Shown here: positions 6,418-64,000 of the stretch, piece after piece | How positions within the stretch are numbered: position 1 is the first letter of the stretch | Layout: the number at the start of each line of letters is the position of its first letter | Assembly (NCBI RefSeq): GCF_051401765.1 | Contig: NW_027480432.1 | Span: 13,286,501 to 13,350,500, forward strand | Length of the DNA: 64,000 bases | Direction of reading: 5' to 3' | Source of the DNA: Calliopsis andreniformis | Lineage: Eukaryota; Arthropoda; Insecta; Hymenoptera; Andrenidae | Notes under the pieces: model-generated | Told to the model about the DNA's origin: nothing | The model's database searches: none | Seen by the model: only the letters and a program-made list of their open reading frames with translations | Translations under genes and position numbers: made by a program

Positions 6418-6811
6418 TACATATTATAGTCGATAGTATATAGAAGATATAATCCATAGAATATTTCTAAAAAGGAAAATAAGAAAATAAAACAAAAAAA
6501 GAAACGATCTTTAGATAGCTCACTGTTCCTATTCCCAAACGCCAGTGGTTAACCTTCCGGAAGCCGTTCCAGCGATCTTCCGGGGATTGTCTCTGCCACT
6601 CGGTCATGGTCTATTTCCGGCACTGGGCGATCGCTTAACGACGCATTGTACGTTCGTATTTATGATAGAAGCGATAGATAGAAGGTAATAAATACTGTTA
6701 GACTGACATTAGCGTTGCCAACGGTGCAGATCCTCTTTTTCCACTGCTTCCTCTGTTAGGGGGACAATGAGAAAGGTATTTTTCTGAGTATTCTAACAGT
6801 ATAATTTTTAT
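6418..6811. other. Unannotated stretch, partly GC-richer
   Basis: About 6535-6650 is clearly GC-richer than its surroundings and includes two CTTCCGG words. No frame or splice-bounded exon stands out. Nothing recognised. Confidence 0.35.
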
Positions 6812-6990
6812 TTTATTTTAGTTTAGATTCGTTTAGTTTAATTTAGTTTAGTTTAGTTTAGTTTAGTTTAGTTTAGTTTAGTTTAGTTTAGTTTAATTTA
6901 GTTTAGTTTAGTTTAGTTTAGTTTAGTTTAGTTTAGTTTAGTTTAGTCTAGTCTAGTCTAGCTTATTTTAGATTATTTTACACTATTTTA
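6812..6990 (+). repeat. (TTTAG)n microsatellite
   Basis: Near-perfect 5-bp periodicity of GTTTA from about 6831 to 6945, fraying at both sides into TTTTA, GTCTA and TTATTTTA variants. Confidence 0.9.
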
Positions 6991-27114: not shown

Positions 27115-29880
27115 GGTTAAATTTTATTCCTAGTAAGTTCGAGACTTGTCCTACGTGTTTTGTCTCAAAGTAGGATTCTAAATCTTTTCCTGTGTTTCTA
27201 AATTTTCTGCAGCAATTAGGATATCATCGGCCTTGATCTGTCTTCTTTTCATATACACAAGGATCAACGGTGTTTCTTTTAAATTCTCCTTCCTTCAGTT
27301 TCTTATCTAGATGTTTGTTCTAACACTGTCCGCTTTGCTTTAGATCATATACTGATTTCTTTAATTTGCAGTAGAGTTTCTCATTGCTCTTCTTTTCAAA
27401 ATTCTTTGGTTGCTTCATATAAATACTTTTTTCAGATTGCTGTGCAAGTATGCACTTTTTATATCGTATTGGTCTAATTTCCAAGCTTTTTGTGCACCAA
27501 GTGCTGTTAATAATCTTATTATATTGAATCTTGATACGGGTGTGCATATGTCTGCATAATTGATGCCCCTTTTCGACCGTGTCGCGAGTACCTTGTTGGT
27601 CGGCTGTATCATGAGTACCTTATTCCTCGTTATCATTTTCTATCTCATCAAGTCTGGTTTCGCTTCTGATGTCAATTAACTTAGGTAATTTTCTTTGGTC
27701 ATTAATTGCACTCGAGTTTGAAATTTCTTCATATTTTGTATTTTCTTCAAATACACAGTTTCTTGATTCTATCACTTCATTTGTTCTGGGGATCCGTACT
27801 CTGTAACCTTTTTTGAATATAGCGTATCCTACTAGTATTCCCTTCTGTGCTTTATTCACGAGCATTGAGCGTCTTCTTTCTTTGAGAACGTGTACAAAGG
27901 TTTCATAACCTATTGATCTGTAATATTTCACGCCAGGCTCCTTATTCCATATTTCGTATGGTGTTTTATTTTCATTATTAGTATTCATAAATCTGTTCCT
28001 CGTGTACGCCGATGTCAACTGTGTCCAAGCTGCTTTAGGTAAATTAGAATCGCTAATGTTACTTCGCACTAAATCTAACAGTGTTCTGTCCATTCGTTCG
28101 ACTATGCCGTTTTGTTGTGGTGTATAAGCATGGTTTTCTCATACACTACGCCTTGCGCATGACAGAATTCGCCCAAGTCTTTGGAGCAAAATTCTAATCC
28201 ATTATCGGTTATCATTCGTTTAAATAACTCTCCCGTTTGTTTTTCTGCTTGAATTTTTCATCTTAAATCCTCCAAATATCTCTAACTTTTTCAACTTTCG
28301 CTTTCGAAACATACTTTTATATATCGACTAGCATCATCTATTATGCTTTACATATACATATTTAGCACCACCCTAACTTTTCACATCCAGCAGACCCATC
28401 ACATCGGCATACACGAGCTCGAGTACCTCAGTTCGCTTTGGATTTCTAAGTAATTTTGGAAATGGCTGTCTCTTTAATTTTCCTGTCAAACAATCATTAC
28501 ATGGTGTTGGTTCTGGTGCAGTACAGTTCAGACCAAATACTGTTTCAGTTTTAATCATTTTTATAATTCTGTGTTTGTTAATATGCATAAAACGTTTATG
28601 CCATATATCTGAAGGTAAATCGTTTGATTTTTGACACTGTAGAGTCGCTGCTTTTCCATCATTTACTGCTTGTGGCTCTGTTTTTATAACAAATAATCTG
28701 TCTCTTTTAGATGCCTTTATTAATGCATTTCCCTTTTCATCACAAATGCGACATTCATATTTATCAAAGGATACTTTTTTGCCATTTTCTATCAATTGTA
28801 TAACCTACAGAATATTATTCTTGATACCAGGTACAAATAAAGCTTAAAAGCTCTTTAGTTTAAAAATCTTTTAGAATTCCTTTCCCTCCAATAATTTTTG
28901 CATTAATTATACCTTTTCCAGATACAGGTGTAGTTGACCCATCAGCTGTCACAAGATTTTCAATCTTTGTGTTCTTCCTAAATGTTACAAAGTATTTTTC
29001 ATTTAGCGCCATATGATGTGTAAGTACCAGAGTCTATGACCTATGCATTCATATCGTTAATTGCAGTATCTAATGTAACGCTTTTCAAAAATTTTCTTAG
29101 TCTTACAGTTTATGGTGATGTGATCTGGCCTTTGACATTTGAAGCAAGTTACTTCGTGTTGAGTATCTGATCTTTTCTTTTCAAATTGCTTTTGTTTCTT
29201 ATGCTGAGAAGTAAGATTATTAGTTTTTATGACCATTTCAGAATGCTTACCTTCTGTGTTTTCTTTACATCTTATTGCTTCTGCAAGAATCCGTCTTTTA
29301 ATGGTCGAACATTTCAATACATCCTCTGGTAAGTTACACAAGACAGACATTACCGTGTCCCATTACTCTGACAAGCCATACAAGATTATCATCGACAAGT
29401 CTCCATCCTATATTTGATTCCCCACGTTTGCGAGTTCTGCCACAGTCTCGTTTATTTGGCCCAAATATGTTTCTACTGAATCATGATTCCTTAATTTTAT
29501 ACAGTACAGTTTAAAACGCAATTGCACTATTCGATATCATGAGGAGCGTTCAGCTTTTTTAGTTTTTTCCATACTTCTCTGGTGGACGTTAGATACCTAA
29601 TCTGCATCTGTTACTCATCACAAATTGCAAGAGCTTTTTCTTGTTGAGGTAAAAATTTCGTTTTTTCATTGCTTTCTACTGGTTCTTGATAACTCCATGA
29701 CGCGTCATTTGTACCATTTAACTTATTTAGTATAAATGATTTGCTTTCCGTAATCATTTCAGCAACACGTAGTTATATGGACATCCTTTTTGAGATTACA
29801 CGTCACGACACGTGATACAGTTACGCTCTGTGAGTTAAGTGATCCTCTATCGCGTCGCCTGGGCACATAACCATTTGTTG
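27115..29880 (-). pseudogene. Ty1/copia retrotransposon Gag-Pol relic
   Basis: On the minus strand, from high to low coordinates: a Gag region (about 29700-29400), a CCHC zinc knuckle (CFKC...H....C, about 29130), a pre-integrase region with a paired Cys motif CNDCLTGK (about 28480), integrase C-terminal sequence (28093-27620), then reverse transcriptase with the copia-type DIKSAYLH (about 27440) and an ADDILIA box (about 27215) equivalent to YVDD. The GAG-IN-RT order is that of copia rather than gypsy. Many stops and frame changes separate the pieces and RNase H was not found. At about 29868 the minus strand reads TGGTTATGTGCCC, resembling the primer-binding site region of insect copia elements, just inside a CAACA LTR-like end. 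It is inserted in the 26439-30108 element. Confidence 0.88.
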
Positions 29881-62321: not shown

Positions 62322-62365
62322 CTGTGAGCACCAGTTGGCCGTGACGGCGTAGCTGGTGCTCACAG
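62322..62365 (+). repeat. 13-bp perfect hairpin
   Basis: CTGTGAGCACCAG and CTGGTGCTCACAG are exact reverse complements around 18 nt. It sits just upstream of the mariner-like frame and may be part of that element's terminal region. Confidence 0.6.
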
Positions 62366-62379
62366 CACTACAGGATGTT

Positions 62380-63222
62380 TCGTCCCATGTGAGACACACT
62401 TCAGGGATGGATTCTACATACCAGAACAACAAAAAAAGTTCACATAAATATATGTCCTATTCGACTTTGTTTTCGAGTTATGGCGAGTTCTGTGTTGAAA
62501 TAATTCATTCAGAAGATATTAGTGGATGGGCTATGTTTATATTACAATTTACAGATAACATTAGTAATAGTACTGAAGCAGGATGTCTGTATTCAGAGTG
62601 TTTTCCTAGAAGGCGTCTATCTAATCAGAAAAGTTTTAAAGAATATCATGAACGGCTTTATAACTCTGGTTTCTTGCGGAAAAGAAATTTCAACTTTTCT
62701 AGTCGAACTCGAACATCGATAAATTTGGAAAAGCGACTTGTAAATCCCATTGAAGTAGATAACAGAGGCAGTGCTCACAGAATAACAATAGTAGTCAATG
62801 TTTCTCATTTAATTATGTGGAGAACATTGAGAGAGCAGCAGTTGTATCCATATGGAAATTGACTAATAATAAGGAAGATTTCCTAATAAGGAAATTGACT
62901 TTGAACCTAGAGTAACATTTTGTACTTGGTTTCTCTAAATGCTCGATCAAGATCAGTGTTTTGTATCTCTTGTATTTTTCAATGGTGAAACTGGCTTTCA
63001 TAAGAAACATCATTGGGCTGAGAAAAACTCGCATGATATTATTTTCTTGAGACATCACCAACAATTTAATCCAAATGTGCGGGCAAGAATAGTAAGTGAT
63101 TATTTAATATCAACTTCTTACGTACAGAGTTGAATATACTGTTAGTCGAGTTGCGAGAAAATTATTGAATGAAAGATTTCCAAATACAGTAGGTACTATG
63201 AATTTTGGCGTCACGTTACCAG
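62380..63222 (+). pseudogene. Mariner-like transposase, cut by LTR copy 3
   Basis: The plus-strand frame 62356-62862 has a basic helix-turn-helix region and HRITIVVNVSHLIMWRTLRE and QQLYPY, the hallmark end of the DNA-binding part. After a frame change, 62939-63133 gives FNGETGF at the first catalytic site (the family has FTDE, so the Asp appears replaced by Gly), then HHWAEKN and RHHQQFNPNVRARIV. After a deletion, VSRVARKLLNERFPN follows to 63222, where the LTR-like sequence begins. Typical family length would need another ~100 residues with the third catalytic site, which are absent or beyond the window. Confidence 0.82.
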
Positions 63223-63317
63223 TGTTACGAGCCGCGGCCGAGTGCAACGCTTGAGGCTGGCGAGAGTGGTCTGTAGTTTTCACACAGGAATACGGGGTCA
63301 GTTTGTTAGTAAGGTGC

Positions 63318-63637
63318 GTAGACGAACCTGACGCGAAGTCAGGGAGCTGCTAGGATTATTGACGGCGAGGACGAACCTGATGCGAAATCAGGGAGCCTTA
63401 GGAATGGTGGAATCAGTCGCGGACGTACCTGATCCGAAATCAGGGAGCCGAAGGAGGTTGAAACTTCGTGAACGAACCCGATGCAAAATCGGGGAGTCAC
63501 TAGGATTGAAATTCGCAGACGAACTCAACGCGGAGTTGAGGAGCTGCTAGGAAGGTAGTAAATTCCCAGAAGAACCTGATGCGAAATCAGGGAACTGTTA
63601 GGATGCGAATGAACCTGATGCAAAATTAGGGAGCCGC
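63318..63637 (+). repeat. Array of seven 33-nt covarying hairpins
   Basis: Units at 63318-63350, 63367-63399, 63419-63451, 63468-63500, 63515-63547, 63566-63598 and 63605-63637. Each is 4-nt outer stem, ACGAA (or close), 6-nt inner stem, 5-nt loop, complementary 6 nt, GAG (GAA once), complementary 4 nt. Inner stems: CCTGAC/GTCAGG, CCTGAT/ATCAGG (three times), CCCGAT/ATCGGG, CTCAAC/GTTGAG and CCTGAT/ATTAGG (one G-T pair). Outer stems: GTAG/CTGC, GAGG/CCTT, GTGA/TCAC, GCAG/CTGC and others with one mismatch. Loops: mostly GCGAA or GCAAA. The 63359-63550 frame is a by-product. Confidence 0.8.
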
Positions 63638-63682
63638 AGGATTGTTAATTTGGCCTCGTAACTTTTAGTAATAATAGAATAG

Positions 63683-63712
63683 AAATATAACTCAAGCGGT
63701 AAAGTTATATTT
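63683..63712 (+). ncRNA. Hairpin with conserved CAAGCGGTAA loop, copy 3
   Basis: Stem AAATATAACT/AGTTATATTT, 10 perfect pairs, loop CAAGCGGTAA identical to 24225-24234. Relative to copy 1 the stem has changed on both sides (ATCT/AGAT to AACT/AGTT) with pairing kept. Confidence 0.6.
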
Positions 63713-64000
63713 CGTGTGGGAACGTTCGATTATTACTAACGATTGTGGAGTTAGAATGCAGGTTCAAACTTCAACTCGAATGAAAAGTTAAAATCTAAAA
63801 TATATTCTAACTAAATCTTTTGTTTACAGCTGTGTCCTGTAACTTTTGTTACGTGTAAGAGTATTTAGAAATTACCAAATAGTTAATGCTCGGTTTTAAC
63901 GCACTGGCAATGCGGGGGTAGAGTGATTGAAACTAATGCCTGAATAGAATTTATGTCGACTCGCGGATCTTATAAGGTTTGCTCCGATTCGAAAGGGAAC

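Follow-up and report, generated by a model that had tools for sequence, protein, structure and literature searches.

Three related LTR families in the 1.02-Gb genome of Calliopsis andreniformis, termed A, B and C here, carry tandem arrays of small hairpins in which both sides of the stems change together and pairing is kept. The arrays are predicted to be transcribed within the 5′ leader of their elements, before the PBS, and may tentatively be regarded as docking sites, likely for Gag/nucleocapsid, that would mark the genomic RNA for packaging.

Hairpin Units in the Window

The window, meaning the whole stretch of 64,000 nucleotides that was analyzed, contains seven tandem 33-nt hairpin units at 63318-63637, all of them at the positions and with the stems quoted in a preliminary description of this DNA. 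As read on the plus strand, each unit has an outer 4-bp stem, an internal loop ACGAA/GAG, an inner stem of 6 bp and an apical loop of 5 bases, with the internal loop altered in units 3, 6, and 7. The units are as follows, with letters as on the plus strand:

63318..63350, minus strand: hairpin unit 1, outer stem GTAG/CTGC, internal loop ACGAA/GAG, inner stem CCTGAC/GTCAGG
63367..63399, minus strand: hairpin unit 2, outer stem GAGG/CCTT, inner stem CCTGAT/ATCAGG
63419..63451, minus strand: hairpin unit 3, outer stem GCGG/CCGA (end mismatch), internal loop ACGTA/GAG, inner stem CCTGAT/ATCAGG
63468..63500, minus strand: hairpin unit 4, outer stem GTGA/TCAC, inner stem CCCGAT/ATCGGG
63515..63547, minus strand: hairpin unit 5, outer stem GCAG/CTGC, inner stem CTCAAC/GTTGAG
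63566..63598, minus strand: hairpin unit 6, outer stem CCAG/CTGT (end mismatch), internal loop AAGAA/GAA, inner stem CCTGAT/ATCAGG
63605..63637, minus strand: hairpin unit 7, outer stem GCGA/CCGC (one A.C), internal loop ATGAA/GAG, inner stem CCTGAT/ATTAGG (one G.U)

The six inter-unit spacers are 6-19 bases long and each starts with TAGGA or AGGA. The window copy is decayed, with three G-U pairs, one A-C pair and two other mismatches among its 70 pair cells, rather than the single G-U substitution reported initially. A chance or low-complexity repeat was ruled out through shuffle folding, a core-pattern search and the covariation score. In the orientation first read, the array region folds better than 100 of 100 shuffles (z −4.47), and a 26-base core, allowing up to three mismatches, has five matches in the 64-kb window, all within the array, and none in 100 shuffles.

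That no named RNA motif fits the units was upheld by the Rfam scan of the window, which returned no matches at gathering level, and by those of the B and C LTR copies, where a single weak, sub-gathering match per copy (E 0.19 and 0.99) fell outside the array. ARAGORN found no tRNA or tmRNA in the window.

Covariation of the Stems

The observation that both stems change together is reinforced by an alignment of 25 units (7 from the window, 8 from copy L022 and 10 from the family-B copy L009, with no unit of these three left out). Standard pairs occupy 97.2% of the 250 pair cells. Two-sided change is present in nine of the ten pairs and in a total of 50 cells, a number that 0 of 500 shuffles (13.2 ± 3.2) reached, and the covariation score is 0.645 against 0.310 ± 0.023 (0 of 500), falling to at most 0.147 when the partners are slid. 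Two of the five measures are not clearly above the shuffles, which do not keep relatedness: the count of two-sided pairs was reached by 23 of 500 shuffles and the count of pair types by 429 of 500.

A second alignment added family C and kept 9 of the 15 family-A units, with units 2, 3, 6, and 7 of the window and units 3 and 6 of copy L022 omitted. Decayed units are among those omitted, and the 97.3% of 188 cells found paired is therefore flattered; MAFFT also placed unit 7 of family B wrongly in this alignment. Two-sided change occurs in all eight pairs, and the covariation score of 0.750 compares with 0.316 in shuffles (0 of 500) and at most 0.151 with slid partners. The same two measures are again weak, with the two-sided-pair count reached by 33 of 500 shuffles and the pair-type count by 307 of 500.

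Gene conversion between units could in principle produce such a pattern. Units were also compared directly by their order, using units 1-5 of A versus B, the later units being without a sure counterpart by order. Between the window and L009, 49 pairs comprise 39 unchanged, 7 two-sided and paired, 2 one-sided and paired, and 1 one-sided and broken, that is, seven two-sided changes against three one-sided. Copy L022 versus L009 gave 40 unchanged, 7 two-sided paired, 1 one-sided paired and 1 one-sided broken, whilst the decayed copy L021 gave 37 unchanged, 6 two-sided paired and 2 unpaired, and 1 one-sided paired and 3 broken. For L023, with four units and 39 pairs, 28 were unchanged, 6 two-sided paired and 1 unpaired, and 2 one-sided paired and 2 broken. 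The results were the same with L010 in place of L009. Because each unit was set against its counterpart by order, the covariation is not explained by conversion from one unit to another.

In family C, the outer stem and ACGAA...GAG are kept, and the inner hairpins are other, longer sequences, yet paired, with apical loops such as AACTTTGC or a 12-base loop. The unpaired parts had been described as the more constant ones, which applies to the internal loop, among the most constant parts of the unit, but not to the apical GCGAA or GNRA-like loop, which varies in B and C. Within the one lineage that the comparison covers, the three families being related and from one genome, the outer stem and the arrangement of the asymmetric internal loop are constant across A, B, and C, and the loop sequence is nearly so; the stems vary in sequence, as do the apical loop, the length of the inner part and the number of units. 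In family-C units 2 and 5 (L056:2793-3002) and in other copies, though not in L104, the 12-base apical loops hold GGCC, which could allow loop-loop dimerization.

LTR Families Carrying the Arrays

A genome search with the window array returned at least 47 matches (the best 40 of 210 candidates were scored), which split by identity into two groups: family A, to which the window array belongs, and family B, at ∼75%. Fuller copies of family A have 7-9 units. The family-B LTR is 1,226 bp long, has 9-10 units and ends TGTTACG...CGTAACA, and the whole repeat is present in at least 40 copies, all at 97-100% (the best 40 of 348 candidates scored). Exact 4-bp target-site duplications flank 10 of the 12 family-B copies read, which identifies those copies as solo LTRs. 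Together with a full-length copy containing gag, pol, and env, these duplications support the proposal that the array lies inside a retroelement LTR.

Family C was reached via a relative (84%) of a Tudor-domain ORF of family B, with the LTR ∼9 kb upstream. Its LTR is 1,019 bp in copy L104 and has five units, which are longer and score 16.4-21.1 bits under the unit model. At least 40 places match a 434-base query at 93-100% (the best 40 of 182 candidates scored). Same-strand pairs of C arrays, 6,867-6,869 bases apart, were found on at least five contigs (C270, C25, C17, C245, and C14), with a third array at a further 6,666 bases on C14. No Tudor match lies between the paired arrays (11 of 11 candidates scored genome-wide), nor does an env match among the best 87 of 269 candidates, and the role of the array therefore seems not to be tied to Env or Tudor.

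The LTR in the window, for which the strand is taken from homology to B and C, has these parts:

63223..64000 and beyond the window end, minus strand: family-A LTR, with edge TGTTACG at 63223
63883..64000, minus strand: block common to A and B (∼75-79% identity), lying after the predicted start site and before the array in the sense direction

Homology of this LTR to copy L021 ends at about window-equivalent position 64273, short of the terminal CGTAACA of L021. In the 10 kb to the left and in the stretch L037 to the right, internal pieces of family B had no nucleotide or protein match and the internal piece of family C no nucleotide match, which suggests that the window LTR is probably a truncated solo LTR. 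It seems to be inserted in or beside decayed frames at window 62353-63120 that presumably resemble an insect HTH and DDE transposase, the frame at 62353-62862 having no Pfam match. By eye, a frame just beyond the window, near the end of L037, looks like what we take to be a CNOT6 deadenylase exon.

Genes and Classification of the Host Elements

The full-length family-B copy, on C183, has two LTRs with the target-site duplication ctat and, between them, gag, pol, env, and a Tudor-domain ORF in that order. The gag frame encodes 410 aa with one CCHC knuckle and is overlapped by the pol frame; the pol frames contain RT and integrase motifs in gypsy order, as judged by eye. Env matches PF12259 (Baculo_F) in two overlapping frames (Pfam, E 1.7e-10 and 2.3e-34). 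The PBS, TGGTGACAGCGGTGGGA, starts three bases past the 5′ LTR in gene sense, and a purine tract precedes the 3′ LTR. The same PBS core follows the LTR of the family-C copy L104, whose gag frame is related and likewise encodes a CCHC knuckle.

From their genes and LTRs, the host elements of the array are provisionally classed as Ty3/gypsy-type, env-bearing and errantivirus-like. Family B has direct TG...CA LTRs, a short duplication, a PBS and a PPT, as is usual of the Ty3/gypsy type, and an env related to baculovirus F, as in errantiviruses. Insect errantiviruses and env-bearing Metaviridae likewise have gag, pol, a Baculo_F-type env, TG...CA LTRs and 4-bp duplications, but the bee element adds the hairpin array and the Tudor-domain ORF after env. 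Gag had no family match in Pfam, and a protein search with it found 13 relatives, of which the eight that are named are all from bees, including Lasioglossum baleicum (68%), Colletes gigas (65%), Osmia bicornis and two Anthophora. Viral contigs gave no related DNA or protein with one exact pattern, the Tudor ORF and Gag as queries.

The last ORF of the C183 copy (L038:3599-4189) encodes 196 aa with a Tudor domain (PF00567, E 3.4e-17). It has 10 matches in the genome, the C183 copy included, and one further homolog (41%) in the protein collection. Tudor proteins are factors of the piRNA pathway, and by analogy a counter-defense or RNP role is conceivable for that of the element. The small ORF between env and the Tudor ORF (L038:3255-3611) had no Pfam match.

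Position of the Array and a Second Hairpin

In the sense direction of the family-B copy L009, a TATA sequence, TATATAAAC, is found at LTR base 210 and an initiator-like TCAGAA at 243. A second hairpin follows at 589, the ten units occupy 659-1137, and the LTR ends at 1226, with the PBS 3 bases on. The layout of the family-C copy L104 is similar, with TATA at 223, a hairpin loop at 602, five units at 692-953, the LTR end at 1019, and the PBS again 3 bases on. AATAAA is absent from both LTR copies in sense. With a predicted promoter and start site upstream of it, the array is predicted to be transcribed within the 5′ leader, just upstream of the PBS.

The second hairpin is present in all three families and lies, in sense, downstream of the predicted start site and upstream of the array. 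In the window it is located as follows:

63682..63713, minus strand: second conserved hairpin, stem GAAATATAAC/GTTATATTTC and loop TCAAGCGGTAAA, letters as on the plus strand

Its stems differ between families yet pair, being GAAATATAAC/GTTATATTTC in A, GATACAACTT/AAGCTGTATC with one A.C in B, and TATATCT/AGATATA in C. The loop contains GAGCGGT in antisense, or AAGCGGT in the window copy, and is TCGAGCGGTAAA in copy L021. Two genomic sites, C6:19241169-19241188 and one on C24, match the PBS complement with T-arm sequence, and 14 match a D-arm pattern with GAGCGGT. One D-arm match, C6:19241118-19241134, starts 51 bases upstream of the C6 PBS-complement site on the same strand; the C24 site has no D-arm match beside it. 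In sense, the loop is therefore the complement of part of the D-arm in the PBS-matching tRNA gene on C6, over 7 bases, a correspondence that was spotted after the fact. The tRNA is, we take it, a leucine tRNA.

Probable Orientation of the Folded Form

The strand first read had been taken for the transcript, which does not agree with the elements: the genes seen in the B and C copies run opposite to it, and the same orientation is presumed for A from LTR homology. Its reading as the gene-sense strand was dropped on the internal frames, and this wrong sense seemed to have no PBS or PPT. The constant internal loop, ACGAA/GAG as read, is therefore CUC/UUCGU in sense. A kink-turn, to which the context of the internal loop had been likened, has a 3-nt bulge followed by tandem G.A and A.G pairs in set order, and this arrangement was not found in the units on the antisense strand, where the order of the G.A pairs is wrong. 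The kink-turn and GNRA resemblances are restricted to the non-sense strand, and so carry little weight.

As to which strand folds, the near-fixed imperfect pairs of family C (17 copies) include five that are G.U only in sense versus one that is G.U only in antisense. The latter is a G.T in unit 1 (17 of 17); A.C or C.A pairs, wobbles only in sense, are found in unit 2 (14 of 17), unit 3 (17 of 17), and unit 5 (16 of 17), and the two further sense-only G.U pairs of unit 4 were read by hand. In copy L104, the sense fold is the more stable one for four of the five units, and the one A.C of the family-B second hairpin is G.U in sense. In family A, the mismatches balance, with 42 G.U against 45 A.C and 9 other (18 loci, 17 of them with at least one unit, and 113 gapped cells set aside), making them uninformative for a strand call.

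Folding energies do not all point the same way. For each of the 17 single units folded from the window and B copies, antisense is the more stable strand, and the window array alone folds clearly only as antisense (z −3.98 versus −1.10 in sense, where 13 of 100 shuffles fold at least equally well). For the B array, folding is as good in antisense (z −4.95) as in sense (z −5.05), and the whole C array, compared without shuffles, is slightly more stable in antisense (−121.5 versus −116.9). The sense RNA is tentatively favored as the folded form by the substitutions in family C.

Possible Role of the Array

Of the roles proposed initially, packaging or protein docking would fit the predicted leader position best. 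A constant outer stem and internal loop, with the rest varying, is the pattern expected where a recognition site has been multiplied to gain avidity. Transcription would place 5-10 hairpins into the leader RNA of the element, just upstream of the PBS; a protein would then read the internal loop of each folded hairpin in the sense RNA, the many copies would give avidity, and the docked array would mark the genomic RNA for packaging. The reading protein would most likely be the element's own Gag, the B and C Gags each carrying a CCHC zinc knuckle, but nothing in the evidence singles out Gag over a host protein. Base-pairing between the second hairpin and the primer-tRNA D-loop is predicted, which would put the array inside the region where reverse transcription is initiated.

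A fuller version of the docking reading, which is possible but somewhat less probable, is that of a modular and expandable array, MS2-like in its use, read multivalently by the element's own Gag and kissing the D-loop of the primer tRNA, and as such a new class of packaging/initiation element; the internal-loop motif would be repeated 5-10 times in U5/leader, with the apical hairpins exchanged freely. To our knowledge, little is established about the packaging signals of env-bearing gypsy elements in insects, and we know of no homogeneous hairpin array in a leader. A literature search by title and start of abstract, mostly of open-access papers, found no paper describing such an array, and none on errantivirus packaging signals by title.

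Retroviral packaging signals (Psi) consist of leader RNA near the PBS that is read by Gag/nucleocapsid. Psi and the 5′ ends of Ty1 and Ty3 RNA (compare PMC4974528 and PMC5454406) are structured leaders near the PBS, as the bee array is predicted to be, but the array repeats one small motif 5-10 times, with a constant loop and changing stems. Structured RNA is also known from the LTRs of Cassandra, with its 5S rRNA-like sequence, and of plant retrozymes, with hammerheads (described in PMC10853983 and PMC4918200), but the bee array has no 5S rRNA or ribozyme match in Rfam. The array would be a structured retroelement leader RNA, a known kind, in a repeated-motif form that seems new. With unit numbers that vary naturally (5, 7-9, and 10) and strong covariation, it would offer a ready test of multivalent docking in genome selection, and the D-loop hairpin one of extended primer contacts, whilst a constant internal loop amid changing stems presents a clean, probeable problem of RNA-protein recognition.

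Env made from spliced RNA would require export of the unspliced form, and an array of internal loops that recruit a host export receptor such as NXF1 is an unlikely alternative to docking for packaging, as repeated identical internal loops between paired stems are in principle the architecture of the CTE of D-type retroviruses. According to the account in PMC4330393, AAGACA is conserved in the internal loops of the CTE, whose symmetrical units each bind one Tap-p15. The bee arrays, in contrast to the two AAGACA units of the CTE, have 5-10 units in a predicted 5′ leader, AAGACA is missing from both strands in the window array and in the B and C LTR copies, and the array is also present in C pairs without listed env. 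Slightly less probable still is an architectural role, with the array compacting U5 and so bringing the D-loop hairpin and PBS together on the primer tRNA. The D-arm-complementary hairpin does lie across the array from the PBS in B and C and has an equivalent position with respect to the array in A. Primer sites are bipartite in Ty1 and Ty3, the Ty3 primer contacting several places of the genomic RNA, its D arm included (as presented in PMC5371799); there, however, the D arm contacts U3, whereas the contact predicted in the bee is in the leader, 5′ of the array. Pure spacing would need no constant internal loop, and the D-loop match has only 7 bases and is post hoc. A translation element (IRES or shunt) that aids ribosome entry is improbable: the predicted leader is long and structured, with ∼1 kb or more ahead of gag in B and a long stretch in C, but no Rfam IRES was found at gathering in the window, nor in either the B or the C LTR copy at E ≤ 1, and nothing specific indicates such an element.

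The fold might also belong to an antisense LTR transcript or to the minus-strand strong-stop DNA of reverse transcription. The purine-rich antisense loops, the stability of the window and B units and the good folding of the window copy in antisense alone would agree with this, but the near-fixed wobbles of family C and most L104 units favor sense, leaving it about as unlikely as the compaction of U5. Selection on folding may be dispensed with altogether if template switching within imperfect palindromes copies one arm to the other, since retroelements use a switching-prone enzyme for their own copying. Arm-copying would, however, tend to symmetrize the internal loop, which stays asymmetric (5 versus 3 bases) in the read units of all three families and, though unpaired, keeps its sequence whilst the stems change; this explanation is considered very improbable. 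Equally little probability is given to DNA-binding sites past the promoter, like the Su(Hw) site array that gypsy of Drosophila bears. Tandem copies with spacers in a predicted transcribed LTR region resemble that arrangement, but DNA-binding sites keep their sequence and the stems of the array change theirs while keeping their pairing. Docking of a protein, likely Gag, on the sense leader RNA is the reading that these comparisons leave as the best, if tentative, explanation.

Other Repeats in the Window

Elsewhere in the window, TTTAG is repeated ∼35 times at 6807-6980. Pfam relics of two transposable elements are present at 1498-2821 and 27620-28804, comprising a Tc5/pogo-type transposase, with a DDE_1 match and HTH_Tnp_Tc5 just below the cut-off, and a copia-like integrase region, with SH3_retrovirus and gag_pre-integrs.
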